From the NCBI GenBank assembly GCA_003221635.1, contig QHSR01000068.1, forward strand, positions 1 through 41,205: a stretch of DNA of 41,205 nucleotides, written 5' to 3'. This DNA is from Candidatus Rokuibacteriota bacterium (GTDB lineage: Bacteria; Methylomirabilota; Methylomirabilia; Rokubacteriales; CSP1-6). Made by a program: the position numbers and the translations under genes. Below the pieces are notes generated by a model. The model made no database searches and was not told the DNA's origin. It was given only the letters and a program-made list of their open reading frames with translations. Each line of letters opens with the position of its first letter. The stretch's first letter is position 1. Positions 1,967 to 39,853 of the stretch are shown here, one piece after another.

Positions 1967-2884
1967 CTAGCGCAGAGTTTGCTGCTGGAGGTCGAGGACT
2001 TTTTCGGCGAGCGTCGTCAGCATCCGCCAGACGGGCTCGTGGTGGCGCGTCGCCGCCGGATCGTCGCCCGAGCTATCCAGCAGCACGTACTCGGCGCCGA
2101 GCGATTCCAGAGCCTCGAGGTCCTTTCTCACCTGGTCGAGTGTTCCCTGGCCGGCCAGGCGCTGGTCGTCGGGCGGCGGCGACTCCGTCAGCTGCAGCCG
2201 GATACGCGGGCAGAGAGCCGGAGCCCGTTTGCCCTCCGCCGCGGCGATCGCTCTGAGTCTCGGCAGGCCGGTGTCGCGCAACCAGTCCAGGCGGACCCGG
2301 TTCGGGTGCCAGCCGTCGCCGTGGAGCACCGCCCGGCGCAGCGCCGCATCGCTCGAGCCGCCGACCCAGATGGGCGGGTGCGGTGAGCGCAGCGGCCGCG
2401 GCCCCGTGTGCACGTTCTTGAACGAGACGAACGGGCCGGCGTACGACGCCACGTCGTTGGCCCAGAGGGTCTTGATCGCGGCCAGATAATCGTTCGAGAT
2501 GGCGCCGCGGCGTTCGAACGGCACACCGAGCGCCTCGAACTCCTGCTTCGCCCATCCCACGCCCACCCCGAAGATGAAGCGGCCTCCACTCAGTCGATCC
2601 ACGGTCGCGGCCACACGCGCGGTCTGGAGGGGGTGGCGGTAGGGGAGAATGATGACGGTGGTTCCGAGCTCGACCCGGCGCGTGGCGGATGCCAGCCACC
2701 CGAGCGTCGTGAACGGATCATAGATCGGCGCGGGATATTTAGCCGCGACGTCGGGTGTGGGCGCGACGTGGTCCGAGATCATCACCAGGTGATAGCCGAG
2801 CGCTTCGACGAGGGTCGCCCAGCGCGCGAGCGAGTCGGGACTCACCCCCGGTCCCCAGTTCAAGAGATTGACGCCGACCTTCAT
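1967..2884 (-). CDS. LLM-class F420/flavin-dependent oxidoreductase
   Basis: The 305-residue protein begins MKVGVNLLNWGPGVSPDSL and shows the luciferase-like monooxygenase (TIM-barrel) pattern: MISDHVAPT, then TTVIILPYRHPLQTARVAAT, FIFGVGVGWAKQEFEALGV and PIWVGGSSDAALRRA. These resemble the F420-dependent LLM enzymes (Rv2161c/MSMEG type) more than true luciferases, but cofactor choice (F420 or FMN) cannot be settled here. The start ATG (2882-2884) overlaps the amidase stop by four bases, so the two genes are translationally coupled. The frame is open far upstream of the start, but that part is the shadow of the amidase gene. Confidence 0.9.
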   Translation of the reverse strand: MKVGVNLLNWGPGVSPDSLARWATLVEALGYHLVMISDHVAPTPDVAAKYPAPIYDPFTTLGWLASATRRVELGTTVIILPYRHPLQTARVAATVDRLSGGRFIFGVGVGWAKQEFEALGVPFERRGAISNDYLAAIKTLWANDVASYAGPFVSFKNVHTGPRPLRSPHPPIWVGGSSDAALRRAVLHGDGWHPNRVRLDWLRDTGLPRLRAIAAAEGKRAPALCPRIRLQLTESPPPDDQRLAGQGTLDQVRKDLEALESLGAEYVLLDSSGDDPAATRHHEPVWRMLTTLAEKVLDLQQQTLR

Positions 2885-4296
2885 CGCGGGCCGACGGAGG
2901 GGCGATGCTGCGCCCACGGGCGCGCGGCCTCGAACGCCGCCGAGGCGCGCAGCACCGTGACATCGTCGAATCGGCGGCCGATGATCTGCAGCCCGATCGG
3001 TAGCCCCGCTTTCGTGAAGCCGCACGGAACCGTCGCCGCCGGCTGGCCCGTCATGTTGAAGATGTACGTGAACACGCTCGCCGCCTCCCGGCCGACCGGC
3101 ACTCCGCCGATCTCGGCCGGGAAGAACTCGCCGATGCGGAGCGGCGGGCAGGCGACGGTCGGCGTGAGCAAGAGGTCGTACCGTTCGAAGAACGCGCGCG
3201 CGTGCTGCCACCAGGCGAGCCGGTCGAACCACGCCTGGACATACTTCGTCGGCGGCAGCTTCGTCGCCTCCTCGACGATCGGGAGCAGGCCCGGGTCGAT
3301 CTGATCGCGGCGGTCGAGGTAGGGCGCGAGCCGGGCCCCGATGCCCCCGAGGAAGATCGTTCGCCAGCAGTCGTAGGGTGCCGGCCACGTCGGGTTCACG
3401 CTCTCGACGCGGCAGCCCAGCTCCCGGAACGCGCGCGCAGCCTTCGCGGTCGTCTCCCGCACCTCCGGATCCACCGCGGGCGCGATGCCGAGGGTGTCGC
3501 TCCACGCGACGCGCAGGCCCTTGAGGCTTCCCTTGAGCGCCTTGACGTAATCCACGCCCGCCGGCGGCAGCGAGTACTGATCGCGCTCGTCGGGCCCGGC
3601 GCAGACGTTCATCATCAGCGCCGCGTCCTTCACGGTGCGCGTCATCGGCCCGGCGTGGGAGAGACTCCACGCCGCGCTGGACGGATAGACGGGAATCCGT
3701 CCCCAGGAGGCCTTGAGGCCGAAGATGCCGCACCAGGCGGCGGGCTTGCGGATCGAGCCGCCGCCGTCGGTCCCGATGGCGAGGGGGGCCAGGCCCGCGG
3801 CGACGGCGGCGCCCGCGCCGCCGGAGGAGCCGCCGGGCGTGTGCCCGAGGCTCCACGGATTTCGCGTGACCCCGAAGAGGAGATTGTCGGTCACGCCGAC
3901 CCACCCGAGCGTCGGCGTGTTGGTCTTGCCGATCATGATGGCGCCGGCCGCCTTGAGGCGCTCGACCGACGGCGCGTCCTCGGTCGGCACGTTGTCGCGG
4001 TACAGCGGCGAGCCGAAGGTGGTTCTGACCCCTTTGGTGATGACCAGGTCCTTCACCGAGAACGGGACACCGTGCAGCGGGCCGAGCCGGGCCCCGCGCC
4101 GCGTGACGGCCCGCTCCGCCGCCTTCGCGGCCTGGCGCGCCCGCACGGCGTCGAGGGTGACGTAGGCGTTCAGCTCCTTCAGCGTGTCGATCCGTGAGAG
4201 CACCGCGTCCACGACCTCGACGGGGGAGACCTTCTTCTTCGCGATCGCGGGAGCGAGGTCGGCCGCGGACATCCAGCAGAGGGCGCTGTCATTCAT
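2881..4296 (-). CDS. Amidase signature (AS) family hydrolase
   Basis: The 471-residue protein has all amidase-signature landmarks: catalytic Lys82 in GVPFSVKD, the Gly/Ser loop TPGGSSGGAGAAVAAG with cis-Ser near residue 157, and nucleophile Ser181 in IGTDGGGSIRKPA. Length is normal for the family. Members hydrolyse amide bonds, from small aliphatic amides to 6-aminohexanoate dimers or aryl amides; the substrate is open. The GatA role is unlikely because no gatB or gatC is nearby. I chose ATG at 4294-4296 because a TACAAT box lies 10 bases upstream; another ATG at 4326 would add ten residues without family similarity and would overlap the divergent gene. It is first in a two-gene unit with the LLM oxidoreductase. 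Confidence 0.92.
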   Translation of the reverse strand: MNDSALCWMSAADLAPAIAKKKVSPVEVVDAVLSRIDTLKELNAYVTLDAVRARQAAKAAERAVTRRGARLGPLHGVPFSVKDLVITKGVRTTFGSPLYRDNVPTEDAPSVERLKAAGAIMIGKTNTPTLGWVGVTDNLLFGVTRNPWSLGHTPGGSSGGAGAAVAAGLAPLAIGTDGGGSIRKPAAWCGIFGLKASWGRIPVYPSSAAWSLSHAGPMTRTVKDAALMMNVCAGPDERDQYSLPPAGVDYVKALKGSLKGLRVAWSDTLGIAPAVDPEVRETTAKAARAFRELGCRVESVNPTWPAPYDCWRTIFLGGIGARLAPYLDRRDQIDPGLLPIVEEATKLPPTKYVQAWFDRLAWWQHARAFFERYDLLLTPTVACPPLRIGEFFPAEIGGVPVGREAASVFTYIFNMTGQPAATVPCGFTKAGLPIGLQIIGRRFDDVTVLRASAAFEAARPWAQHRPSVGPR

Positions 4297-4306
4297 GGTG
4301 GCGGCT

Positions 4307-4312
4307 ATTGTA
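4307..4312 (-). promoter_or_regulatory. -10 box (TACAAT) of the amidase operon
   Basis: On the minus strand TACAAT lies 10 bases before the amidase ATG at 4296, and there is no Shine-Dalgarno sequence between them. Transcription would start only a few bases before the ATG. No convincing -35 box was seen. The site shares its intergenic space with the divergent remnant starting at 4325, for which TATGCT (4311-4316, plus strand) could be the matching -10 box. Confidence 0.45.
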
Positions 4313-4324
4313 TGCTGCCTTCCC

Positions 4325-4504
4325 ATGACGGCGACGGCTTTTGGAATCTTCGACCACGTGGATCGATCGGACGAGCCGCTCGGCGTGTTGTACGAGCACC
4401 GGCTGCAGCTCGTCGAGGCAGCGGAGGCGAGCGTTAAGATGACGCAGGGCGAGCCGCAGCACGGCCGGGGGCTGGGGCCCCCGCGTGCGAGGCGAGCGTT
4501 ATGA
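4325..4504 (+). pseudogene. Truncated LLM-class (luciferase-like) oxidoreductase remnant
   Basis: From ATG 4325 the frame reads TAFGIFDHVDRSDEPLGVLY then EHRLQLVEAAEAS. This is the N-terminal strand and first helix of FMN-dependent LLM monooxygenases, which usually continue with GF-x-GYHLAEHH. Here similarity stops after about 36 residues, at base 4431, and a low-complexity tail runs to the stop at 4502-4504. The break coincides with the first of two 13-base direct repeats at 4424-4436 and 4489-4501. The next gene starts inside the tail. This is a gene start left behind by a deletion or insertion. It could still be transcribed from a TATGCT box at 4311-4316. Confidence 0.6.
4424..4501. repeat. 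13-base direct repeats flanking a GC hairpin
   Basis: GAGGCGAGCGTTA occurs at 4424-4436 and again at 4489-4501. Between the copies, CGGGGGC (4466-4472) and GCCCCCG (4477-4483) form a perfect 7-base-pair stem with a TGGG loop. The unit sits exactly where the LLM remnant loses its similarity and where the thioesterase gene begins. It may be a small palindromic insertion or the scar of a deletion between short repeats. Confidence 0.5.
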
Positions 4505-6766: not shown

Positions 6767-7426
6767 CTAGACGGGCGGCCAGGGATAGCGGTGGCCGCCC
6801 GTGTCGACGGGAAAACAGTCGGTCGCCGCGAGAGCGGTCGCGCGGGCGCGCAACGCCTTCTGCTCGTCGGGTTGCAGCAGCGCGGCGAGCGTCTTCGGCA
6901 AGGCCACACGGGCGAAGCGCCGGACGTCCGCGAGCATCTCGGTCGGGATCGGCTCTCCCCCGAACTCCCAGATGACCGTGCGCAGCTTCGGCTCGACGTG
7001 GAAGCAAAGACCGTTGTCGACGGCGTAGATCCCGCCGTCCGGGCCGAGCAGGCAGTGGCCGCTCTTCCGGTCGGCGTTGTTGGAAATGAGGTCGAAGAGG
7101 CAGATCCGCTGCAGCGGGCCGCGATGCGCGGGATCCTCGTGCAGCGTGAAGTAGTGCTGCTCGAAGTCGGCCGGAATGAAAAGCTGGAACGACCCTTCGC
7201 CGTACGGTCCGTCGCGCTGCACCGTGAGCGGCACGAGTCCCCACCCGAGCGCTTCGGAGAGGTGCCAGGCCGCCAGCTCGCGCTTGAAAAGGCCGCGCGG
7301 AAAGTCCCACAGCGGCCGCTCGCCACGCTCCGGCTTGTAGACGGCCAGCGTGGTCGTGGCCTCCAGCGTGACTTCGACGAGAAACGTGGCGTTGGAGCTC
7401 CACGGCATCCGGCCCTTCAGCGTCAC
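6767..7426 (-). CDS. SCO1664-family protein (PI3/4-kinase-like fold)
   Basis: About 219 residues with RMPWSSNATFLVEV, YKPERGERPLWDFP, FDLISNNADRKSGHCL and IYAVDNGLCFH. These match the SCO1664 family (TIGR03843), which resembles phosphatidylinositol-kinase-like proteins: Lys in YKP, a catalytic-loop-like NNADR and a metal-site-like VDNG. The biochemical role is unknown. GTG at 7426 is the only normal start codon in frame here, yet family-like residues (ETAELLSRGE) lie just upstream, so a rare start codon may be used and the true protein may be 10-15 residues longer. It is the last gene of a three-gene unit with DUF3090 and a histidine phosphatase, a set known to travel together in Actinobacteria. 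Confidence 0.85.
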   Translation of the reverse strand: MTLKGRMPWSSNATFLVEVTLEATTTLAVYKPERGERPLWDFPRGLFKRELAAWHLSEALGWGLVPLTVQRDGPYGEGSFQLFIPADFEQHYFTLHEDPAHRGPLQRICLFDLISNNADRKSGHCLLGPDGGIYAVDNGLCFHVEPKLRTVIWEFGGEPIPTEMLADVRRFARVALPKTLAALLQPDEQKALRARATALAATDCFPVDTGGHRYPWPPV

Positions 7427-7454
7427 CTCGCCGCGGCTGAGAAGCTCGGCCGTC

Positions 7455-7955
7455 TCAGTGGACGACGTGGCCGTTGCTCCGCGGACAGGCGTGGCTACCC
7501 GGGTCCTTGGGTTGGTTGCACCAGGGACAGATCGGCCGGCTGGCCTTCATCAACACGTCCGCCTGCTTGACGAACGCCGCCGCCTGCGCGCGGCTGATGA
7601 GAAAGCGCGCCGAGGCGGCGTCGCCGCCCTCCTCGTCCTCCAGGAGCTCGTTGGCAACGACCAGGATGCGGTCGCGCGCCTCGTCGTAGCCGACGGCGAT
7701 CGAGGCGACGATCCAGACCGCGTCGAGGGGCTCGAGCAGGGAGAGGTTCTTGGGCGTCACTGCGCCGACCGCGGGCAGCTTGTCGAGGAGCCCGGCAAGG
7801 TACTGGGCGAGGGCCCGGACTTGCTCCTTCTCGCTCTTGAGCGTGACCAGCGTGCCTTTCTCGCGCGACTGGAGATAAAAGACGCGCTGGCCGGGCGGGC
7901 CGATCGCGCCGGCGGTGAAATGATCGGGGGCCACGAAATCGAACGATGCGCTCAT
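7455..7955 (-). CDS. DUF3090-family protein
   Basis: The 166-residue protein starts MSASFDFVAPDHFTAGAIGP, has RVFYLQSREKGTLVTLKSEK and ends with a CPWCNQPKDPGSHACPRSNGH zinc-ribbon-like tail, all typical of DUF3090 (TIGR03847). Its function is unknown. The start ATG (7953-7955) overlaps the stop of the histidine phosphatase by four bases, so the two are translationally coupled. It lies just upstream of the SCO1664-like gene in transcription order. The four Cys/His residues at the end suggest zinc binding. Confidence 0.9.
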   Translation of the reverse strand: MSASFDFVAPDHFTAGAIGPPGQRVFYLQSREKGTLVTLKSEKEQVRALAQYLAGLLDKLPAVGAVTPKNLSLLEPLDAVWIVASIAVGYDEARDRILVVANELLEDEEGGDAASARFLISRAQAAAFVKQADVLMKASRPICPWCNQPKDPGSHACPRSNGHVVH

Positions 7956-8578
7956 GATCCTCCCAGCCAGCCGAGGTCTCCGTCGACGGAATTCACGGTG
8001 AGCACGACCGGTCCCTGGCGATGGTACCCGATCGCGGTCACGGAGCACGGCGCGATCATGACGCGCTGGAAGAGATCGAGGTGGATGCCGAGCGCGTGGG
8101 CCACCGCCGCCTTGATCGGATCGGCATGAGAGACGGCGACCACGACGGCGCCCGGATGACGCTCGACGATCCGCGCGAGCGCCGAGGTGACGCGCGTCTG
8201 CATCTCGGTGAAGGACTCGCCGCCGGGAAAACGAAACCCGCTGGGGTGCCGCTGCACGACCTGCCATTCGGGCTTGCGGGCGAGCCGCCGAAGCTTCTGG
8301 CCGGTCCACTCGCCGACGTCGCCGTCGGCCAGGTCGCGATCGACGCGAACGGCCAGGCCGCGCAAGCGGGCGATCGGCATCGCCGTCTCGCGCGCCCGCT
8401 CGAGCTGCGAGGCGTAGACGGCCGCGACCTTGGGCAGCCGATCGATCCGCGCGGCCACGACGTCGGCCTGGCGTCGGCCGTCCTCGGCCAGGTGCAGGCC
8501 CGGCGCCTGCCCCGGGAGAATCTTGCCGGTCGTCGGCGTCAGGCCGTGGCGGACCAGGAGGACCAGGGTCGGGCGCAT
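7952..8578 (-). CDS. Histidine phosphatase (MSMEG_4193-like phosphomutase family)
   Basis: The 208-residue protein opens with LVLLVRHGLTPTTG, giving the phosphorylated His11 in RHG. Arg61 lies in SQLERARETA, Glu90 in GDVGEWTG is the likely general acid, and His151 is in VAVSHADPIK. This full set marks an active branch-2 phosphoglycerate-mutase-fold phosphatase. The neighbours DUF3090 and SCO1664 place it in the TIGR03848 group, whose substrate is unknown. A perfect TATAAT ends seven bases before the ATG with no ribosome site, so the mRNA is probably leaderless. It is the first gene of the three-gene unit. Confidence 0.9.
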   Translation of the reverse strand: MRPTLVLLVRHGLTPTTGKILPGQAPGLHLAEDGRRQADVVAARIDRLPKVAAVYASQLERARETAMPIARLRGLAVRVDRDLADGDVGEWTGQKLRRLARKPEWQVVQRHPSGFRFPGGESFTEMQTRVTSALARIVERHPGAVVVAVSHADPIKAAVAHALGIHLDLFQRVMIAPCSVTAIGYHRQGPVVLTVNSVDGDLGWLGGS

Positions 8579-10463: not shown

Positions 10464-12026
10464 TCAGTTCCAGGCCGTGCCCTTGATCCTGATCAGGCCG
10501 TCCGGCACGGCCTTGTAGCCTTTGAGGTTCTTGGGGAAGGCCACGATGTAGTTCAGGTGGTAGATGTAGATGAGGTTGCGCCGCGCGGTGAAGAGGTCGA
10601 TGGCCTCGCGATACAGTGCCCGGCGCTGGTTGAGGTCGGTCGCCTCGCGGGCCTTGTTCAGGAGTGCGTCGATGCGCTCGTCGCACGCGTGGGTGGTGTT
10701 CAAGCTCCCGGAGTCGCCCCGCCGACACGTCTGGAACTGGTGGATGTTGCCGTCGGGATCCACGCGGCCGCTCCAGCCGATCAGGAATGACTGGAACTTG
10801 CCGTCGTCGTTGTCCGTCAGCGCCGAGGCGAACTCCTGGGCGCGCAGCGTGATGGTGAAGCCGGCCTCGCGGGCCATCTGCTGGATCACCTCACCGACCC
10901 GCCGCTGTTGCGGTTCGTTGGGGATCGTCATCTCGAAGCTGTAGCCGCCGGCGAGGCCCGCGTCGGCCAGGAGCTTCTTGGCCCTCGCCACATCGCGAAC
11001 AGGACACTTCCGGCTCTTGTCGTAGAAGGGGCTCACGGGAGAAATTGGCGTGCACCCCGGCGTGTACTGGCCTTCCCACGCCACCTGGTTCAGCGCTTCG
11101 CGGTCGATGCTGTAGTCGAACGCCTCCCGGACTCGCGAGTCGTTGGCCAGCGGGGTGCCGAGATCCCCGGGTGGGTTCTGCTTTCCGGTCTTGTTGCGGA
11201 GGTTGACGGTGATGCCCTGGTAGCCGAGCCCGGTCACGTTCGTCATCTCGAAGCGTCCCTCGCGCTTGATGGCGGTCGCGTCGGTCGGCGACACCTGGTG
11301 CATGACGTCGATGTCGCCCGAGCGCAGGTTGGCCAGGCGCACGTTGTCGTCGGGAATGATCCGGAAGACGATCTTGTCGAACTTCGCCTGCGCGGGATCG
11401 AAGTAGTGCGCCGACTTCTCGACGACGATCCGGTCCTGAGCCACGCGCTCGGCGAATTGCCACGGCCCGACGCAGACGGGCGCGGTGCCGAACTTGTCGC
11501 CGAGCTTGTTGACCGCCGTCGGCGAGAGGGGCATGCCGGCTCGGTCGGTCAGCTGGGCGACGAGCGGCGAGTAGGGCGCCTTCAGGCGCAGGCGCACGGT
11601 GAGCGGGTCGACCACCTCGACGGCCTCGACCGGCGCCAGCTCGCTGGCGCGGTTCGAGCCCTTGAGCGTGCGGTGCCGATCCAGCGAGAACCTGACCGAC
11701 TCGGCGTCCATGCGCGTACCGTCGTTGAACTTCACGCCCGAGCGGAGCTTGATGGTGACGGTCCGACCGCCGTCGCTGACCGCCGGCATGTCCGCGGCCA
11801 GTTGCGGATAGATCCGGAGATTCTCGTCGATCTCGTAGAGCTTCTCGCACATCTGGGAAAAGATGATCCGGCCCACGTAGGTGCGGGCCAGCGTGGGGTC
11901 GAGGAGGTCGGGATCCTGATTGAGGGCGACGACGAGCGTCTTCTTCTGCGCGAGCGCCGGGTCCGTCGGCATGAGCGCGCCGAGCGCGCCGACGATGAGC
12001 CACAGCGCCTTCGTGAGGCTCCGCAT
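10464..12026 (-). CDS. ABC transporter substrate-binding protein, family 5 (peptide/nickel/glutathione type)
   Basis: The 520-residue periplasmic binding protein has a signal peptide (MRSLTKALWLIVGALGAL ... ALA, cleavage before QKK). The mature part begins KTLVVALNQDPDLLDPTLAR, followed by QLAADMP and KLRSGVKFNDGTRMDAESV, typical of SBP family 5. Sequences such as REAFDYSIDREALNQVAW and the C-terminal ligand-binding lobe are complete. The ATG at 12026 is supported by GGAGGAA eight bases upstream, unlike the leaderless genes nearby. The ligand is unknown; the gene set could import oligopeptides, glutathione or opines. It is the first gene of the operon with both permeases. Confidence 0.93.
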   Translation of the reverse strand: MRSLTKALWLIVGALGALMPTDPALAQKKTLVVALNQDPDLLDPTLARTYVGRIIFSQMCEKLYEIDENLRIYPQLAADMPAVSDGGRTVTIKLRSGVKFNDGTRMDAESVRFSLDRHRTLKGSNRASELAPVEAVEVVDPLTVRLRLKAPYSPLVAQLTDRAGMPLSPTAVNKLGDKFGTAPVCVGPWQFAERVAQDRIVVEKSAHYFDPAQAKFDKIVFRIIPDDNVRLANLRSGDIDVMHQVSPTDATAIKREGRFEMTNVTGLGYQGITVNLRNKTGKQNPPGDLGTPLANDSRVREAFDYSIDREALNQVAWEGQYTPGCTPISPVSPFYDKSRKCPVRDVARAKKLLADAGLAGGYSFEMTIPNEPQQRRVGEVIQQMAREAGFTITLRAQEFASALTDNDDGKFQSFLIGWSGRVDPDGNIHQFQTCRRGDSGSLNTTHACDERIDALLNKAREATDLNQRRALYREAIDLFTARRNLIYIYHLNYIVAFPKNLKGYKAVPDGLIRIKGTAWN

Positions 12027-12080
12027 GGTCAATTCCTCCGGATGTGAAAGATCTCGCTCTGCGTGGCCGGGACGGGGCGC

Positions 12081-12086
12081 ATCATA
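12081..12086 (-). promoter_or_regulatory. Possible -10 box (TATGAT) of the ABC importer operon
   Basis: TATGAT on the minus strand would give a leader of about 48 bases ending in the strong GGAGGAA ribosome site before the binding-protein ATG. There is no clear -35 match. It lies in the 152-base divergent space between the importer operon and the DinB-like gene. Confidence 0.35.
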
Positions 12087-12178
12087 CCCTACGCGGGCGC
12101 GATCCGTCGGCGGGCCTCCCCCGCAGAGCTTCATCTCGGGCCGCGCCAGTGGGAAGATTACCCGAAAGGAGAGTTTCC

Positions 12179-21149: not shown

Positions 21150-22163
21150 ATGAGGGTCGGGCTGGTTCTGGACGGGCGCCGGTCGGCGTCGGAGATCGCC
21201 GAGCTCGCGGCGCTGGCCGAGGCGCACCGGTTTTCCCACGTGTGGCTGTCGGGCGGCGCCCGGACGAAGGACCATTTCGTGCGACTTGCCCTGGCGGCCG
21301 CCGCGACGCGCCGGATCCGGCTGGGCCCGGTCGCGTTGAGCCCGTTCGAGATGCATCCCGTCCGCATCGGCCTCGCGCTCCTGACGCTCGACGAGGTCGC
21401 GGCGGGGCGGGCCAGCCTGGTGCTCGGCGCGGGCGGCGATCTCGCCGCGACGCTGGGCCTTCCGGCGAAGGGCCGGGTGGAGGCGGTCGAGGAGTGCATC
21501 GATATCATTCGCGCCCTGGCCTCGGGTGGCGAGGTCAACTATTCCGGGGCTCACTATCGGGTGAAAGGGCTCTTTTCCCCGTGGAGTCGCGTGCCCATGG
21601 ATGGGCTCTATCTCGGCGCTAACCGGCCGCGGATGCTCCGGCTCGCCGCGCAGAAGGCCGACGGGGTCATGGTGACCGACATGCCGACGGGCTACCTGGG
21701 CTCGTTGATCGCCCGGGTCCGCGCCGAGCTTGCCGAGGCCGGGCGCGATCCGCGGGCGTTCGCGCTCAGCAACTGGTTCGTCTGGAACGTCCAGGAGACT
21801 CGGGAGGAGGCCCTGCGCCTGGCGCGCCGTCAGCTCGGCTTTCGGCTCTACTACATTCGCGACGTGGCCTCCTCGATCGGCCTCGGCGAGACGGAAGCCG
21901 CAGAGCTGGCGCGCCGACAGCCCGAGATGCTTCGTGCCCTGTTCCAGGGGACGGAGCCCTGGGCGCCGCCCCCTCATGTCACCGATCTCCTGATCGAGCA
22001 TCTCACGCTGACGAGCGACCGCCGAGGCTTGGAACGCTGCGTGGAGCGGCTCGTGGAGTTCGCACGGCTGGGGCTCAGCGAGATCGCGCTGGCTCCGCAC
22101 GGAGATCCCGCCTCCGCCATCAAGCTGATCGGGACCGCCGTGATCCCCACGGTCGACCGCTAG
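21150..22163 (+). CDS. LLM-class flavin/F420-dependent oxidoreductase
   Basis: The 337-residue TIM-barrel protein starts MRVGLVLDGRRSASEIAELA. It contains RIRLGPVALSPFEMHPVRIG, ASLVLGAGGDLAATLGLP, VEECIDIIRALASGGEVNYSG-like sequence and LYLGANRPRMLRLAAQKADG, all typical of F420-dependent methylenetetrahydromethanopterin-reductase-like LLM enzymes. The substrate and cofactor are not determined. The gene has no ribosome site but a TATCGT box six bases upstream. A short gap separates it from the VOC gene at 22233, which has its own ribosome site. It is one of three LLM-type genes in this window (the others at 1967 and, as a fragment, 4325). Confidence 0.88.
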   Translation: MRVGLVLDGRRSASEIAELAALAEAHRFSHVWLSGGARTKDHFVRLALAAAATRRIRLGPVALSPFEMHPVRIGLALLTLDEVAAGRASLVLGAGGDLAATLGLPAKGRVEAVEECIDIIRALASGGEVNYSGAHYRVKGLFSPWSRVPMDGLYLGANRPRMLRLAAQKADGVMVTDMPTGYLGSLIARVRAELAEAGRDPRAFALSNWFVWNVQETREEALRLARRQLGFRLYYIRDVASSIGLGETEAAELARRQPEMLRALFQGTEPWAPPPHVTDLLIEHLTLTSDRRGLERCVERLVEFARLGLSEIALAPHGDPASAIKLIGTAVIPTVDR

Positions 22164-24070: not shown

Positions 24071-24109
24071 GCGCCCCCGGGCGCGTCCGCGCGCCCCCCG
24101 GGCGCGTCC
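24071..24109. repeat. Tandem GC-rich palindromic repeat between convergent genes
   Basis: GCGCCCCCGGGCGCGTCC (24071-24088) is followed by GCGCCCCCCGGGCGCGTCC (24091-24109), nearly identical. Each copy contains GCGCCC and GGGCGC in inverted order and can form a hairpin. They fill the 54 bases between the msrA and CoxL stops and could serve as a bidirectional terminator, although no T tract follows. Confidence 0.5.
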
Positions 24110-26424
24110 TAGCGCCCCTTCAGCACCTGCCAGACGCGCTCGGGACGGAGCGGCATGTCGAGGTGGCGCACGCCGAACGGACGGAGCGCATCCACCACCG
24201 CGTTGACAATCGCCGGCGTGGCGCCGATCGTGGCCGCTTCGCCGATGCCCTTGGCCCCCATCGGGTTTCGTGGCGAGGGCGTCACGGTCTGATCGGTCAC
24301 GAACGACGGCAGATCGTCGGCGTGCGGCACCGCGTAGTCCATGAGCGTGCCCGTCAAGAGCTGGCCGTCCGCTCCGTAGACCAGCTCCTCGAGGAGCGCC
24401 TGCGCGATGCCCTGAGCGAGGCCGCCATGCACCTGCCCGGCTACGAGCGTCGGGCTGATACGCACGCCGCAGTCGTCGACCGAGATGAAGCTGCGCACGG
24501 TGACCCGTCCCGTCTCGCGATCGGCCTCCACGACCGCGATGTGGGCGCCGAAGGGATAGACGAGCGCCGGCGGGCGAAAGAACTCGGTCGCCTCCAGCCC
24601 GGACTCGATGCCGTCGGGAAGCCCCTCGCCGTAGGCGCGCGCCGCGATCGCCTCGAGCATGAGGGCCTTGTCGGGCACGCCCTTCACCTGATACCGGCCG
24701 TCGGTGAAGACGACGTCGTCGGCCGCCGCCTCGAGCATGTGGGCGGCGAGCCGCCGTGCCTTGGCCTGCACCTTGAGCGCTGCGCCCAGGATCGCCGATC
24801 CGCCGACGACGAGGCTGCGGCTGCCGCCGGTGCCGTTTCCCATCGGCGTGTTCAGCGTGTCGCCGTGCCGTACCACGATCTTGTCGAACGGCACGCCGAG
24901 GTGATCGGCGAGGACCTGCGAGAACGCCGTCTCGTGCCCCTGGCCGTGGGCGGAGGTGCCCGTGTACGCCGTCACGGTGCCGCCGGGCTCCACGCGCACG
25001 ACCGCGCTCTCGAAGGGACCGAACCCGCACATCTCGACGTAGCAGGACATGCCGATGCCGAGCAGCTTCCGGTCGTTGCGCCGCAGCCGCTCCTGCTGCT
25101 CCGCGCGGAGCTTCGGGTACCCGGCCAGCTCGAGCGCCTTCGTGAGCGCGCGGTCGTACTCACCGCTGTCGTAGTTCTGCCCGGTCGGCGCCGCGTACGG
25201 GAACGCGCTGGGCGGGATGAAGTTCTTCCGCCGCACCTCCTCCGGCGTCCGGGAGAGCTCCGCCGCGATCACGTCGATGAGGCGCTCGAGGTAATAGGCG
25301 GCCTCCGGCCGTCCGGCGCCCCGATACGCGGCGACGCTCGTCGAGTTGGTGAAGACGCACGTGGACTGGAGATCGATATTCGCGACCTTGTAGACGCCGA
25401 CGCCCATCGACAGCGTGAGGTCGGGAATGAACGTGAAGACGGGGTAGGCGCCGATGTCCGCCGTCACCCGCATCCGGAGGGCCGTGATGGTGCCGTCGTC
25501 CTCGACGGCGGCCTCGAGGTCGGTGACCTGGGCGCGTCCGTGCGTGGTCGCCATCATGTGCTCGATCCGGGTCTCGGTCCAGCGCAGCGGCATCCGGTAG
25601 AGCCGCGCGAGCGCGGCGACGACCGCATCCTCGGGATAGCAGCCGAACTTCACGCCGAACCCTCCGCCCACCTCCGGGGCGATCACGCGGATCAAGTTCT
25701 GCGGCATGCTCAAGGCCGTCGCCAGATCGTTGCGGAGGCCGTGCGGCGCCTGATTCGTCGCCCACACGATGAGTCCGCCGCTGGTCGGGTCGGGCGCGGC
25801 CAGCGTCGCCCGTCCCTCGAGCGGCACGCCGCAGAGCCGCTGGCTCACCATGCGCTGCTTCACGACACGCTTGGCCTTGGCGAAGACGCCGTCGGGGTCA
25901 CCGGCCCTGATCGTGTTCTGGTGCTCGATGTTGTTGGGCGCGTCGTCGTGGAGCTGCGGCGCGCCCTTGTCCATCGCCGCGAACGGATCGGTCACGGCCG
26001 GCAGCGGCTCCCAGTCGACGACGACGTCGTCGGCGGCGTCGACCGCGATCCCCTCCGATCGCGCGATGACGGCGGCGACGGCCTCGCCCACGTGACGCAC
26101 GCGGTCGACGGACAAGGGATAGTGCTTGCGCCCGAGGTTGGCCGACGCGTCCCCGCCGCCGCCTTCGCCTCCGCTGACCAGCGGCACTGGCGCACAGAGC
26201 TTGCGGATGTCGCTGCCGGTGACCACCTTGAAGACGCCGGGCCGTCCGAGGGCCGCGGAGGCGTCGATCCGCTTGACGCGCGCGTGAGCGTGTGGGCTGC
26301 GCACGAACGCGACGTAGTGCATGCCGGGCAACGCGAGGTCGCCCACGTAGCTCGAGGTCCCCGTGATCAGCCGGGGATCTTCCTTGCGCTTGACTGCCGC
26401 TCCCATCAGTCGTGGAGTCGCCAT
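24109..26424 (-). CDS. Xanthine dehydrogenase/CO dehydrogenase-type molybdopterin subunit (CoxL form II-like)
   Basis: The 771-residue protein is a large molybdo-hydroxylase subunit: GAAVKRKEDPRLITGTSSYVGD at the start, GVPLEGRATLA, VGGGFGVKFGCYPED, TSAHGQGHETAFSQ and GAKGIGEAATIGATPAI with the catalytic Glu near the end. The active-site loop is AYRGAGR at 366-372, the form II type, not the AYRCSFR of true aerobic CO dehydrogenase. It should bind Mo-molybdopterin cytosine dinucleotide and hydroxylate an aldehyde, purine or aromatic ring. The small iron-sulfur and medium FAD subunits are not on either side. TATTCT eight bases upstream serves as -10 box; there is no ribosome site. Confidence 0.93.
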   Translation of the reverse strand: MATPRLMGAAVKRKEDPRLITGTSSYVGDLALPGMHYVAFVRSPHAHARVKRIDASAALGRPGVFKVVTGSDIRKLCAPVPLVSGGEGGGGDASANLGRKHYPLSVDRVRHVGEAVAAVIARSEGIAVDAADDVVVDWEPLPAVTDPFAAMDKGAPQLHDDAPNNIEHQNTIRAGDPDGVFAKAKRVVKQRMVSQRLCGVPLEGRATLAAPDPTSGGLIVWATNQAPHGLRNDLATALSMPQNLIRVIAPEVGGGFGVKFGCYPEDAVVAALARLYRMPLRWTETRIEHMMATTHGRAQVTDLEAAVEDDGTITALRMRVTADIGAYPVFTFIPDLTLSMGVGVYKVANIDLQSTCVFTNSTSVAAYRGAGRPEAAYYLERLIDVIAAELSRTPEEVRRKNFIPPSAFPYAAPTGQNYDSGEYDRALTKALELAGYPKLRAEQQERLRRNDRKLLGIGMSCYVEMCGFGPFESAVVRVEPGGTVTAYTGTSAHGQGHETAFSQVLADHLGVPFDKIVVRHGDTLNTPMGNGTGGSRSLVVGGSAILGAALKVQAKARRLAAHMLEAAADDVVFTDGRYQVKGVPDKALMLEAIAARAYGEGLPDGIESGLEATEFFRPPALVYPFGAHIAVVEADRETGRVTVRSFISVDDCGVRISPTLVAGQVHGGLAQGIAQALLEELVYGADGQLLTGTLMDYAVPHADDLPSFVTDQTVTPSPRNPMGAKGIGEAATIGATPAIVNAVVDALRPFGVRHLDMPLRPERVWQVLKGR

Positions 26425-33777: not shown

Positions 33778-35031
33778 ATGAAAAAGCGAGTCGTCATCAC
33801 CGGCCTCGGCGTGGTCTCGCCGATCGGGGTCGGCGTCGGTGAGTTCTGGAAGGCCGCGCTGGCGGGAAGCTCCGGGATCAGCGCGGTCGCCCCATTCGAC
33901 ACATTGCCGATGGACGCCTTCCGTTCCCGAGTGGTGGGCCGGGTTCGAGACTTCAATCCCGCGGCACACTTAGACTCAGGACAGGCCGATCGGCTGGACC
34001 GCTACGCTCAGTTCGGGCTGGTGGCGGCCAAGGAGGCGATTACCGACGCGGGGCTGCGGATGGACCAGGAAGCTCCCTACCGCGTCGGGGTGATCGTCGG
34101 GGCGGGCATGGGCGCGATGACCATGGGTGAGCGCGAGCTCACCAGGCTCTATCTGGACCTGAAGCCGAACCGGGTGCCCCCCAGTTTCATTCCCGCCATC
34201 ACGATGAACTCCGTCTCGGGGCTGATCGCCCTCGCGCACGGCGCGAAGGGTCCGAACTATACGATCTCCACCGCCTGCTCATCGAGCGCCCACGCGATCG
34301 GCCAGGCCCTGGTCTCCATCCGGACCGCGCAAGCCGACGTGGTGATCGTCGTGGGGGCCGACGCGAGCATCACCCCGCTGGTCCTCGCGGGCTTCGGCTC
34401 ACTCCGCGCGCTATCGACACGCTATAACGACGACCCGGGACGGGCGTCCCGGCCGTTCGATCGGGGACGCGATGGATTCGTGCTGGGCGAGGGCGCCGGC
34501 GCCTTGATCCTGGAGTCGCTCGCCCACGCCCGGAAGCGTCGCGCGCGGATCTATGTCGAGGTCGCCGGATACGCCGCCACGAGCGAAGCCTACAACATGG
34601 TGATTCCGCGCGAGGACGGGGCGGAGATGGCCGCCACGATGTCCATGGCGCTTCGGGACGCGCGGACCACGCCCGCCCAGGTGGACTACGTGAACGCCCA
34701 TGCGACCTCCACGATCCGCGGGGACGAGGTCGAAATCCGAGGGATCCGACGCCTCTTGAAGGCGCGGGCGAGCAAGGTGCTGATCAGCGCCACGAAGTCC
34801 ATCATTGGCCACACCCTGGGTGCCGCGGGTAGCATCGGGGCGGTCGCGACGGCGATGGCCATTCAGAGCGGCCTGGTCCACCCCACGATCAACTACGAGG
34901 ATCCCGATCCCGAGTGCCAGCTTCCGGGCATCGCCGGCAAGCCCCAGGAGCGCCGCATCAAGGTTGCCCTAGTCAACGCGTTCGGGTTCGGCAGCAACAA
35001 CTCCTCGCTCGTGCTGAAGCGGTACGACTAA
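33778..35031 (+). CDS. fabF: 3-oxoacyl-[ACP] synthase II
   Basis: The 417-residue thiolase-fold condensing enzyme starts MKKRVVITGLGVVSPIGVGV. The triad is complete: Cys167 in ISTACSSSAHAIG, His308 in VNAHATSTIRGDEVE and His345 in SIIGHTLGAAGS, with Lys340 in SATKS. The family loop is usually NAHGTST; Ala replaces Gly here. It elongates acyl-ACP by two carbons. An acyl carrier protein gene and lpxD follow directly, suggesting a dedicated supply of acyl chains for lipid A. No strong ribosome site precedes the ATG. Confidence 0.94.
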   Translation: MKKRVVITGLGVVSPIGVGVGEFWKAALAGSSGISAVAPFDTLPMDAFRSRVVGRVRDFNPAAHLDSGQADRLDRYAQFGLVAAKEAITDAGLRMDQEAPYRVGVIVGAGMGAMTMGERELTRLYLDLKPNRVPPSFIPAITMNSVSGLIALAHGAKGPNYTISTACSSSAHAIGQALVSIRTAQADVVIVVGADASITPLVLAGFGSLRALSTRYNDDPGRASRPFDRGRDGFVLGEGAGALILESLAHARKRRARIYVEVAGYAATSEAYNMVIPREDGAEMAATMSMALRDARTTPAQVDYVNAHATSTIRGDEVEIRGIRRLLKARASKVLISATKSIIGHTLGAAGSIGAVATAMAIQSGLVHPTINYEDPDPECQLPGIAGKPQERRIKVALVNAFGFGSNNSSLVLKRYD

Positions 35032-35052
35032 CCGAGAAAGGGCAGCCACCGT

Positions 35053-35436
35053 ATGACGGCCAACAACGCGATTGCGGAGCGACTTCGCGCCACGCTGGCG
35101 AAGGAGCTGAAGCAGGACGTCAAGTCGATCACCCCCGAGCACACGCTGCGAGGCGACCTGGGGTTGAACTCTCTGGATGCGATCGAGCTGATGTTCAGGA
35201 TCGAGGAGGAATTCGATCTATCCATTCCCGACGACGACATACAAGGGCTGGTCAAGGTCGGGGACGTGATCGACTACCTGGAACGGCGATTGACCCCTGC
35301 GGCCGCGACGGCGCACGCGATCCCGGCGGCCACGGCGCCGCGCCCGAGCCCGGCGGCCACAACGACGCGCCCGCCGTCGGCGGCGAAGGCTCCCGCCAAG
35401 AAGGCCAAAGCAAAAGCATCGCGCCGTCATGCCTGA
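35053..35436 (+). CDS. Acyl carrier protein with basic Ala/Pro/Lys-rich tail
   Basis: Residues 1-80 form an ACP: helix [15 protein letters not shown], the loop [17 protein letters not shown] with Ser40 as the phosphopantetheine site (Asn instead of the usual Asp before it), and helices with [16 protein letters not shown] and [12 protein letters not shown]. Residues 81-127 are an added tail of Ala, Thr, Pro and Lys ending in [12 protein letters not shown]. Typical ACPs end near residue 80. It lies 21 bases after fabF and overlaps lpxD by eight bases, so the three genes form one unit. A role in lipid A acyl transfer is inferred from this setting. Confidence 0.9.
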
Positions 35437-36511
35437 GGGTTCTCGCCTTGTGCGACTGGGCGAGATACAACAGGTCATCGGAGGCGACCTCGTCGGATCG
35501 GGCGAGGAGATCGTTTCGGGGGTGTCGAGCCTGGAGGAGGCCGGTCCGCGGGAGCTGGCGTTTGTCACGGCCGACCGCTACATTCCCGCGGCCCTCAAGT
35601 CCAAGGCCGGGGCCTTCGTCACCCACCGTCCTCTCCGGGAGCTGAAGCGGCCCCACGTCGTCGTGCCGCACCCCGCCCACGCCATCGTGACCGTGATCCA
35701 TCGGTTTTTCACGGCCCCGTTCAAGCCCCGCGGGATCGCCGAGCAGGTCGTTCGCGGTGCCGACGTCCGGATCGGTCCGGACCCATCTATCTGGCCCTTC
35801 GTCACCCTCGGCGACCGGGTCACCCTGGGTGCGAGGGTGACGCTCTACCCCGGTGTGTTCATCGGCGATGATGTCACGGTCGGCGATGACACCGTGCTCT
35901 CCCCCAACGTGACGGTCCTCGACCGCTGCCAGGTCGGGAGCCGCGTACGCGTTCACAGCGGGAGCGTGATCGGGAGCGACGGGTTCGGCTATGTCCAGCA
36001 CGACGGGCGCCATCACCGGGTGCCGCAGCTGGGCATCGTGGTCATCGAGGACGACGTGGAGCTGGGCGCCAACGTGACCGTCGATCGCGCCACGTTCGGC
36101 CGGACCGTCGTCAAGCGCGGCGCGAAGGTCGACAACCTCGTGCAGATCGCCCATAACGTCACGGTTGGAGAGGACAGCATCCTCGTGGCGCAGTCCGGGA
36201 TCGCCGGTAGCTCGTCCCTGGGGCACCACGTGGTGATGGGAGGACAGGCGGGCATCGGCGATCACCTGACGATCGGCGATATGACCATGATCGCGGCGCG
36301 GTCCGGGGTGAGCCGCCACACCGAGGCCGGCCAGATCGTCTCCGGCAATCCGGCGATTCCGCATACGGTTGCGCTGAGGGCTTACAGCGTCATCCCCCAC
36401 CTCCCCGAGCTTCGCCAGCAGGTTCGCGACCTCGAGCGGCGCGTCCGCGCCCTCGAGTCGGCGCCGCAGGCGCCGCGGCACAAGGGCAAAGGCAGGAATC
36501 GCGCGGGCTGA
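35429..36511 (+). CDS. lpxD: UDP-3-O-(3-hydroxyacyl)glucosamine N-acyltransferase
   Basis: The 360-residue protein has the LpxD N-terminal domain ([33 protein letters not shown]) and a left-handed beta-helix of hexapeptide repeats from about residue 105 ([18 protein letters not shown] and onward). [20 protein letters not shown] binds the sugar nucleotide, and His242 in [11 protein letters not shown] is the catalytic base. A C-terminal helix ([19 protein letters not shown]) and a basic tail follow. It transfers the second acyl chain onto the lipid A precursor. The ATG at 35429 overlaps the ACP stop. It is the best evidence in the window for an outer membrane. Confidence 0.95.
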
Positions 36512-38516: not shown

Positions 38517-38522
38517 ACTGCG

Positions 38523-38528
38523 ATCCTA
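38523..38528 (-). promoter_or_regulatory. -10 box (TAGGAT), leaderless start of nagZ
   Basis: TAGGAT on the minus strand lies six bases before the nagZ ATG at 38516, with no Shine-Dalgarno sequence. The intergenic space of 89 bases is shared with the divergent RidA gene. Confidence 0.5.
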
Positions 38529-38568
38529 CGGCACGGGTCTTCCTATAGAAAACTCGCGGCGAAGGGGC

Positions 38569-38574
38569 TATTCT
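38569..38574 (+). promoter_or_regulatory. Possible -10 box (TATTCT) of the triple RidA gene
   Basis: TATTCT would start transcription near 38581. GAGGGGAGAG at 38591-38600 then serves as ribosome site for GTG 38606. No clear -35 box was seen. Confidence 0.35.
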
Positions 38575-38605
38575 CACGGCTCGTCAGCTCGAGGGGAGAG
38601 CGTAC

Positions 38606-39853
38606 GTGCCCAGGGTGAACATCTCCGTCCCCGACATCCCGAGGCCGCTGGCCAACTACACTGCGGCGGCCCGCGCCGGCAGTCTCGTCTTTGCGGCCGG
38701 ACAGCTCGCGAGCGACTTCAAAGGAGGCGTCGCCGCCGAGGCGCGTCTCGATCCCGCGTTTCCGTATTACGGCTCGGCGATCAAGAAGCAGACGCGCTAT
38801 GTCCTGGAAAACCTCGCGCAGACATTCAAGGCGGCGGGCACGTCGCTGAGCCACGTGGTGAAGGCGCAGGTGTTCCAGACGGATCTCGCGAACTTCAGCG
38901 GCTTCGACGAGGTCTGGAAGGAATTCTTCCCGGCACCGCCACCGCGGACGACGATCGGCACGACCGGGCTCCTCGTCCCCGGTACCCTGGTCGAGATCGA
39001 CCTGATCGCCACCATGCCCACGGCCGCCGGCCGCGCGGTCCAGTCGGACACCCCGCGGCCTCTGGCGAATTACTCGGAGGCGGTCGTGGTGGGCGATCTC
39101 GTCTTCGCCGCCGGTCAGCTCGCCAGCGACTTCAAGACGGGCGTGCCACGCGAGGCGCGCGTGGATCTGGCGTTCCCCTACTACGGCTCGGACATCAAGC
39201 GTCAGACGCGGTACGTGCTCGAGAACCTCGCGCGGACGTTCAAGGCCGCCGGCACGTCGCTGGACCGCGTGGTGAAGGCGCAGGTCTTCCACACCGATCT
39301 GAGCAACTTCTTCGCCTTCGACGAGGTCTGGCGAGAGTTCTTCCCCACGCCGCCCCCGCGCACGACGGTCGGCACGACCGGCCTGCTCGTGAAGGACACG
39401 CTGGTGGAGATCGACCTGATCGCGGCGCTGCCCTCGGCCCGAGTAGAGCAGATCGCGGTGCCCGACATTCCGAAGCCGCTGGCGCACTACACGCCCGCGA
39501 CGCGGGTAGGGGAGCTCGTGTTCGCCGCCGGGCAGATCGCCAGCGACTACGCGACCGGCGTGCCCCGAGGGGTCCGCGTCGACCCGGCGTTCCCCTACTA
39601 CGGCTCGGACATCAAGCGCCAGACGCGCTACGTGCTCGAGAATCTGGCGAAGACTCTCACCGCGGCCGGCACCTCGCTGGACCACGTGGTCAAGGCGCAG
39701 GTATTCCACACGGATCTCGCGAACTTCGCCGGCTTCGACGAGGTGTGGAAGGAGTTTTTCGCCGCGCCGCCGCCGCGGACCACCGTGGGCACGACCGGTC
39801 TCCTGGTGCCGGGCACCCTGGTCGAGATCGACCTGATCGCGGCCATGCCCTGA
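38606..39853 (+). CDS. Triple-domain RidA (YjgF/YER057c/UK114) protein
   Basis: The 415-residue chain consists of three RidA domains: residues about 8-138, 149-276 and 285-415. Each repeats the same blocks: LVFAAGQLASDF, FPYYGSxIKxQTRYVLENLA, AAGTSLxxVVKAQVFxTDL, FxxFDEVWxEFF and PPPRTTxGTTGLL ending in VEIDLIA. The Arg before TTxGTTG (Arg114, Arg252, Arg391) corresponds to the conserved catalytic Arg of RidA, and the Glu in VEIDL is kept too. Normal RidA is a single domain of about 130 residues that forms a trimer with sites between subunits and removes reactive enamines/imines made by PLP enzymes. This chain would fold as a covalent trimer. Start GTG 38606 follows GAGGGGAGAG. Confidence 0.93.
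   Translation: MPRVNISVPDIPRPLANYTAAARAGSLVFAAGQLASDFKGGVAAEARLDPAFPYYGSAIKKQTRYVLENLAQTFKAAGTSLSHVVKAQVFQTDLANFSGFDEVWKEFFPAPPPRTTIGTTGLLVPGTLVEIDLIATMPTAAGRAVQSDTPRPLANYSEAVVVGDLVFAAGQLASDFKTGVPREARVDLAFPYYGSDIKRQTRYVLENLARTFKAAGTSLDRVVKAQVFHTDLSNFFAFDEVWREFFPTPPPRTTVGTTGLLVKDTLVEIDLIAALPSARVEQIAVPDIPKPLAHYTPATRVGELVFAAGQIASDYATGVPRGVRVDPAFPYYGSDIKRQTRYVLENLAKTLTAAGTSLDHVVKAQVFHTDLANFAGFDEVWKEFFAAPPPRTTVGTTGLLVPGTLVEIDLIAAMP
38627..39850 (+). repeat. Three tandem RidA-coding repeats
   Basis: The coding repeats lie at about 38627-39019, 39050-39433 and 39458-39850, each 380-395 bases, joined by linkers of about 25-30 bases. Protein identity among the copies is high across nearly the whole length, while third codon positions differ often. 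This points to an old internal triplication kept by selection rather than a recent assembly duplicate. Confidence 0.85.

Follow-up and report, generated by a model that had tools for sequence, protein, structure and literature searches.

Is a protein that carries three RidA domains in a single chain a RidA trimer in covalent form, and what might such a protein serve? RidA, a small enzyme of metabolite cleanup, usually acts as a trimer of separate chains. The question is raised by a gene at positions 38,606 to 39,853 of a stretch of 41,205 nucleotides (the window), which comprises positions 1 to 41,205 of contig QHSR01000068.1 of a Candidatus Rokuibacteriota bacterium (assembly GCA_003221635.1). 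Judging from its sequence and from a structure model, the best reading of the encoded protein is an intramolecular (fused) RidA trimer, in which the three domains are very probably packed like three RidA chains and form three inter-domain active sites.

The gene and its three RidA domains

One open frame runs on the forward strand from a GTG at 38606 to a stop codon at 39851-39853 and encodes 415 amino acids (aa) without any internal stop. Upstream of the GTG the reading stays open for 19 more codons (open frame of 434 aa), and the start codon is aligned with the GTG in all eight full-length Rokubacteria relatives (ATG in L054). The RidA family PF01042 is matched three times and is the sole Pfam family in the protein, with an E value of 3.4e-80 for the whole protein. 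The curated cut-off of 27.3 bits is exceeded by the whole protein (266.4 bits) and, in the genome search, by each single domain (82.9-95.1 bits). For the model TIGR00004 (Rid family detoxifying hydrolase; cut-off 106.25 bits), three stretches add up to 219.4 bits. Identity between the domains is 76.7% (102/133) for domains 1 and 2, 80.0% (104/130) for domains 1 and 3, and 78.5% (102/130) for domains 2 and 3. At the DNA level three copies can be followed over 300 nucleotides with start-to-start spacings of 414 and 417, the second and third copies sharing 74% and 76% of their positions with the first. A sequence-only reading of the window had described three RidA copies with short linkers in this 415-residue frame, and its coordinates proved right, as did the linkers, which span a few residues in the alignment. 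Its Arg114, Arg252 and Arg391 and the active-site Glu of every copy were recovered as well, the latter being residues 130, 268 and 407 by alignment, and the motif it had quoted is present as GSAIKKQTRY in domain 1 and as GSDIKRQTRY in domains 2 and 3. The features are:

38606..39853, + strand: three-domain RidA gene, 415 aa plus stop (open frame, PF01042 three times, full-length orthologues in eight other Rokubacteria records)
38630..39025, + strand: RidA domain 1, residues ~9-140 (Pfam and alignment)
39044..39439, + strand: RidA domain 2, residues ~147-278 (Pfam and alignment)
39458..39850, + strand: RidA domain 3, residues ~285-415 (Pfam and alignment)
38945..38947, + strand: codon of Arg114 in domain 1, equivalent to TdcF Arg105 (Arg in 37/37)
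39359..39361, + strand: codon of Arg252 in domain 2 (Arg in 37/37)
39776..39778, + strand: codon of Arg391 in domain 3 (Arg in 37/37)

Conservation and occurrence

The search for other three-domain RidA proteins, which had been proposed as a check, was run as a pattern-based scan of 84,980 species genomes and gave 44 loci, 36 of which hold a full-length three-domain frame in addition to the window protein. Eight of these frames are found in other Rokubacteria records (83-92% identity), and the 28 further full-length relatives (46-67% identity) belong mostly to Proteobacteria and Actinobacteria. The hosts of full-length frames are Rokubacteria, Defluviicoccus, Aquabacter, Bradyrhizobium, Pseudolabrys, Acetobacteraceae, Betaproteobacteria/Burkholderiales, Polynucleobacter, Acidimicrobiia, and Nocardioidaceae. 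Two host labels probably stem from mislabelled bins: the nearest kin of L084 (Thermoflexus hugenholtzii JAD2) in this set are Polynucleobacter-type, and those of L072 (a Bordetella parapertussis metagenome-assembled genome, MAG) are environmental Betaproteobacteria. The other eight of the 44 loci comprise four that are truncated at contig ends (L087, L088, L090, L092), a divergent Mycobacterium form with a very weak third domain (L089), a single-domain relative (L091), and two damaged-looking copies, one with a stop between domain pieces (L066) and one without part of domain 3 (L057), which may reflect sequence error or decay.

Compared with the eight Rokubacteria orthologues, the ratio of nonsynonymous to synonymous substitution rates (dN/dS) is 0.13-0.17 for the whole protein and 0.05-0.19 for single domains, and purifying selection therefore acts on all three domains. 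In the survey of the phylum, 12 of 95 genomes gave a match at E <= 1e-40; nine are full-length at 83-100% identity (own genome included), one is gapped in domain 3 (G008), one is a contig-end fragment (G013), and one is a distant paralogue only (G092). Matches at E <= 1e-25 occur in at least 3 of 369 and at least 6 of 385 genomes of two classes, counts that include the centre genomes and those already known, with up to four candidates scored per genome and some distant paralogues among the matches. Among plasmids, 522 of 72,556 records match, all below 60% identity, and 77 of them have a single place that accounts for at least 80% of the query; among the 12 of these 522 matches that were listed, the place spans about 370-410 bases, that is, one domain matched by several parts of the query.

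Active-site and interface residues

In an alignment of the window protein with the 36 full-length three-domain relatives (n = 37), the Arg is invariant in all three domains (37/37 each) and the Glu is invariant in domains 1 and 2. Domain 3 of ten Polynucleobacter-type proteins (L074, L075, L078-L085) has Gln for Glu and Phe or Leu at the position of Tyr295, with the Arg retained. When the conserved RidA residues are mapped by alignment, in E. coli numbering, the equivalents of Tyr17, Gly31, Asn56, Arg105, and Glu120 are all found in each domain of the window protein. They belong to the seven totally conserved residues of the RidA subfamily, Tyr17, Gly31, Asn56, Asn88, Arg105, Pro114, and Glu120, listed by Burman et al. 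(2007; PMC1884159). The loop from Arg to Glu is one residue longer than the canonical one, and the equivalent of Pro114 can be placed only without certainty. The trimer-interface pair of Arabidopsis RidA is K136 and E182 (PMC4960622), and the corresponding positions, as mapped by alignment spacing, are K and D in every domain of 37/37 proteins. Furthermore, each domain contains 11 residues beyond the canonical RidA chains compared, located after the strand at 27-30 and before the helix at 59-76.

It had also been suggested that the fusion would let the three sites differ, which is not borne out for the window protein itself, where the catalytic residues are the same in all domains. Among the nine Rokubacteria proteins, only five columns are fixed per domain yet differ between the domains (domain-1 positions 19, 34, 38, 43, 126; residues 1-3 aside), and none of these five falls at the Tyr, Arg, or Glu. 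The suggestion does hold for distant three-domain relatives, 6 of 26 of which keep Tyr, Arg, and Glu in the middle domain only (L094, L096, L097, L113 at 6905-8176 on the - strand, L123, and L132).

Predicted structure of the three-domain protein

Structure prediction of the whole chain, likewise proposed as a check, gave a compact AlphaFold2 (AF2) single-chain model of the 415-aa protein (predicted template modelling score, pTM, 0.88) with predicted pseudo-threefold closure. The best solved match to this model across all three domains is a chorismatase, which is a single chain of pseudo-threefold fold. With the compact model, the chorismatase match, and the invariant interface residues, the intramolecular trimer of the sequence-only reading stands as the best reading; it does not stand as something new, as 3x-RidA has been in print since 2015. 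The three domains would close on each other within one chain in the predicted pseudo-threefold arrangement. As in the RidA family, a 2-imino/enamino acid would be bound through its carboxylate by the Arg of one domain, with the Glu of the adjacent domain near the reacting carbon, and each site would speed its hydrolysis, which yields ammonia and a 2-oxo acid. It is the neighbouring subunit that supplies the Glu in Arabidopsis RidA (PMC4960622).

Several points weigh against this reading. The structural support for the closed arrangement is predicted throughout, and the predicted local distance difference test score (pLDDT) is low (58-75) in the extra loop of each domain (residues ~41-60, 171-200, and 311-340). 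The position of Asn88, which in TdcF contributes to holding Arg105 (PMC1884159), is occupied by Asp in all three window domains and in 37, 34, and 36 of 37 proteins of the family for domains 1, 2, and 3, respectively. Because of this Asp, the window protein is filed, as far as its residues tell, as a 3x-Rid protein of the RidA type and not as a strict member of the RidA signature. No catabolic partner gene is adjacent in the window, and no match at E <= 1e-40 was found in the same-genus genomes G004 and G005 (rated 95% complete); thus, the genus can do without the gene.

The pairing of the domains, i.e., which Arg faces which Glu, was sought in the co-loss of residues in degenerate relatives and given up, too few of the cases being independent. 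With Arg(i)-Glu(i-1), L095 retains two complete sites next to a third that lacks both residues, and a single pair survives in L113, L123, and L132. L089 is compatible with Arg(i)-Glu(i+1) only, and L094, L096, and L097 retain Arg and Glu in the same domain only.

Genomic context and alternative explanations

The window gene stands alone between a divergent GH3 gene upstream (over the cut-off of a beta-N-acetylhexosaminidase model) and a convergent enoyl-CoA hydratase gene downstream:

38517..38605, no strand: gap of 89 bases to the divergent GH3 gene, from the gene positions; a gene transcribed on its own would need its promoter within this gap or overlapping it

These neighbours and a nitroreductase gene of the window give no functional clue. 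Transporter clusters lie near some of the 45 loci compared, with Peripla_BP_6 at 16, BPD_transp_2 permeases at 15, and ABC ATPases (ABC_tran) at 15 of 45, counted in flanks of up to 4 kb with families assigned from a scan of cluster representatives only; the Rokubacteria loci L051 and L052 are among those linked to transporters. Other neighbours depend on the lineage and comprise an NtaA/DmoA-type FMN monooxygenase, molybdopterin hydroxylase subunits, Amidohydro_2, a cyclase, and a deacetylase weakly like PuuE. Since transporter clusters and these enzyme genes neighbour the relatives, 3x-RidA might, where it stands by a Liv-type (branched-chain amino acid/amide) ABC transporter, serve the catabolism of an imported nitrogen compound via an imine/enamine intermediate, which is a weaker inference than that of the fused trimer.

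A dedicated catabolic deaminase of such an imported-nitrogen pathway, like RutC for 3-aminoacrylate or AmnE for 2-aminomuconate, instead of a general imine cleanup enzyme, is possible, although we regard it as unlikely. It would agree with the Peripla_BP_6, BPD_transp_2, and ABC_tran clusters and with the monooxygenase, molybdopterin hydroxylase, Amidohydro_2, or cyclase genes of some lineages. The RutC model TIGR03610 gives the window protein 153.8 bits over three stretches, which does not reach its cut-off of 169.1. Among single-domain structures, AmnE (2-aminomuconate deaminase, 6izh) is the first match by Z (20.3 over 132 residues), with many others within 1, and its sequence match is of near-equal length (131 profile positions to 130 residues).

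The window also encodes a molybdopterin hydroxylase large subunit (24109-26424, -), a luciferase-like monooxygenase (21150-22163, +), an amidase (2881-4326, -), and an SBP_bac_5 solute-binding protein (10464-12134, -), which are partly enzyme types that neighbour 3x-RidA in other lineages and are here at least 12 kb away. A lipid-synthesis cluster at 33778-36511 (+) consists of consecutive genes for a beta-ketoacyl synthase, an acyl carrier protein, and an LpxD-like hexapeptide acyltransferase.

Another explanation is that the chain does not close on itself and that domains of different chains pair instead, leading to an intermolecular domain-swapped or larger assembly, which we consider improbable. 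Linkers of just a few residues would suit it. Two trimers also make up the hexamer of AmnE, a relative of RidA whose version of the loop is extended too (PMC6742747), so that a higher assembly is plausible atop a fused trimer. However, single-chain AF2 prediction is confident on the domain arrangement, both for the window protein and for the asymmetric paralogue L113 (a predicted compact pseudo-trimer with pTM 0.92), and each of the two models has a solved single chain as its match over all three domains. The extra stretch of AmnE (residues 49-59) lies in the loop that joins strand 3 to helix 1, is described as absent from TdcF, YEO7, and hp14.5, and helps to hold the two trimers together (PMC6742747). 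As this loop would correspond to that of the window protein and the profile match is of near-equal length, a dimer of fused trimers would be a fair guess by analogy, no more.

Finally, an assembly artefact or a recent functionless tandem duplication, for which the fragmented assembly of the window's genome (335 contigs, 88.81% complete, 5.17% contamination) and the relative G008/L057 without part of domain 3 could be quoted, is hardly credible and was dismissed on the conservation of the frame, which recurs in eight further Rokubacteria records and in 28 other relatives, and on the per-domain dN/dS, and the copies moreover differ at about a quarter of their DNA positions, too many for a mis-joined single sequence.

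Evolution of the domains

A quick tree of 62 domain sequences, in which 29 of 59 inner branches are weak, shows no grouping by position across lineages, as the position labels need 12-13 changes compared with 14.3-14.4 when shuffled. There is a tendency for domains from the same protein or clade to fall together, and grouping by position is seen within Rokubacteria and between the two Polynucleobacter-type proteins. In 25 of 37 proteins, with clades assigned by hand, the domains are closer to one another than to their positional counterparts in any protein outside the clade, which is not the case in the other 12. Since domains are more alike inside a gene than between lineages, either the copies were homogenised within the gene or the triplication was repeated. 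The single-domain relative L091 (2512-2926, +; 138 aa, ~65% identical) of an alphaproteobacterial MAG is divergent beside the binding-protein and permease genes of a transporter cluster, which shows that a one-domain form also occurs in these surroundings. We tentatively propose, with more doubt than confidence, that three-domain Rid proteins could be living intermediates on the way from a homotrimeric RidA to single-chain pseudo-trimers such as chorismatases, with equal sites as long as the copies are homogenised and later decay to one middle site that is open to a new reaction.

The window's own genome encodes a second three-domain Rid protein (L009; G000:C72:8509-9660, -), which is ~31% identical and has Ala/Ser/Ser for the three Arg, with Tyr and Glu kept. 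A 2+1 arrangement, in which a two-domain Rid gene has a one-domain Rid gene directly behind it in the same orientation, is found in sister genomes (L138-L142) and in the own genome (L143), where the two-domain gene is broken between two frames; it is possibly a split trimer. Symmetric three-site, middle-site-only, Arg-less, single-domain, and 2+1 split forms provide a graded series for the transition from a homotrimer to a single-chain enzyme. In addition, a fused trimer is a natural test bench, as changes to one gene can take out one, two, or three of the active sites of a RidA trimer in order to ask about their independence, which a homotrimer does not directly allow. The clade is conserved, and its transporter linkage in several lineages suggests a catabolic role.

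Comparison with known systems

The RidA/TdcF/YjgF homotrimers share with the window protein the fold, the Tyr/Gly/Arg/Glu positions, and the Lys/acid pair of the interface, but they have one domain per chain. The window protein has three, carries Asp in place of both Asn88 and the interface Glu, and has a longer loop. AmnE has extra residues in the same loop, a likeness drawn from its description and the match length, but is a homohexamer with one domain per chain, in contrast to three. The chorismatases FkbO/Hyg5 (4bps, 5a3k, 5ag3) are 14-18% identical in structural alignments and differ in reaction by name; a chorismate-cleaving identity of the window protein is unlikely, because identity in the structural match is about 15% and the Tyr/Arg/Glu of RidA are intact. 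A fusion of two RidA domains to DUF71 has been described (PMC3541065). The closest counterpart is 3x-RidA, which was defined by Niehaus et al. (2015) with EF_0115 of Enterococcus faecalis as example and presumed to consist of covalently linked trimer units (PMC4433059). Both have three tandem RidA domains in one protein, as likened by the published description. In each domain of the window clade, the loop is 11 residues longer than in the canonical RidA structures compared, and Asp occupies the Asn88 position. Within the open PMC texts, subscription literature being outside the scope, the concept of a three-domain or covalent RidA trimer was found in PMC4433059 alone; PMC6835198, PMC10416821, PMC10984418, and PMC2448422 also surfaced and appeared unrelated. 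PMC7170507 and PMC4632080 gave no account of the chorismatase fold, and PMC5979572 offered residue equivalents only. The window protein is therefore a well-conserved new example of a kind of RidA fusion known since 2015 and not a new kind of protein. What goes beyond that publication, as far as its excerpts extend and within the same scope, are the clade itself, its linkage to transporters, the likeness of domains within genes, the relatives with a middle site only, and the 2+1 pair.
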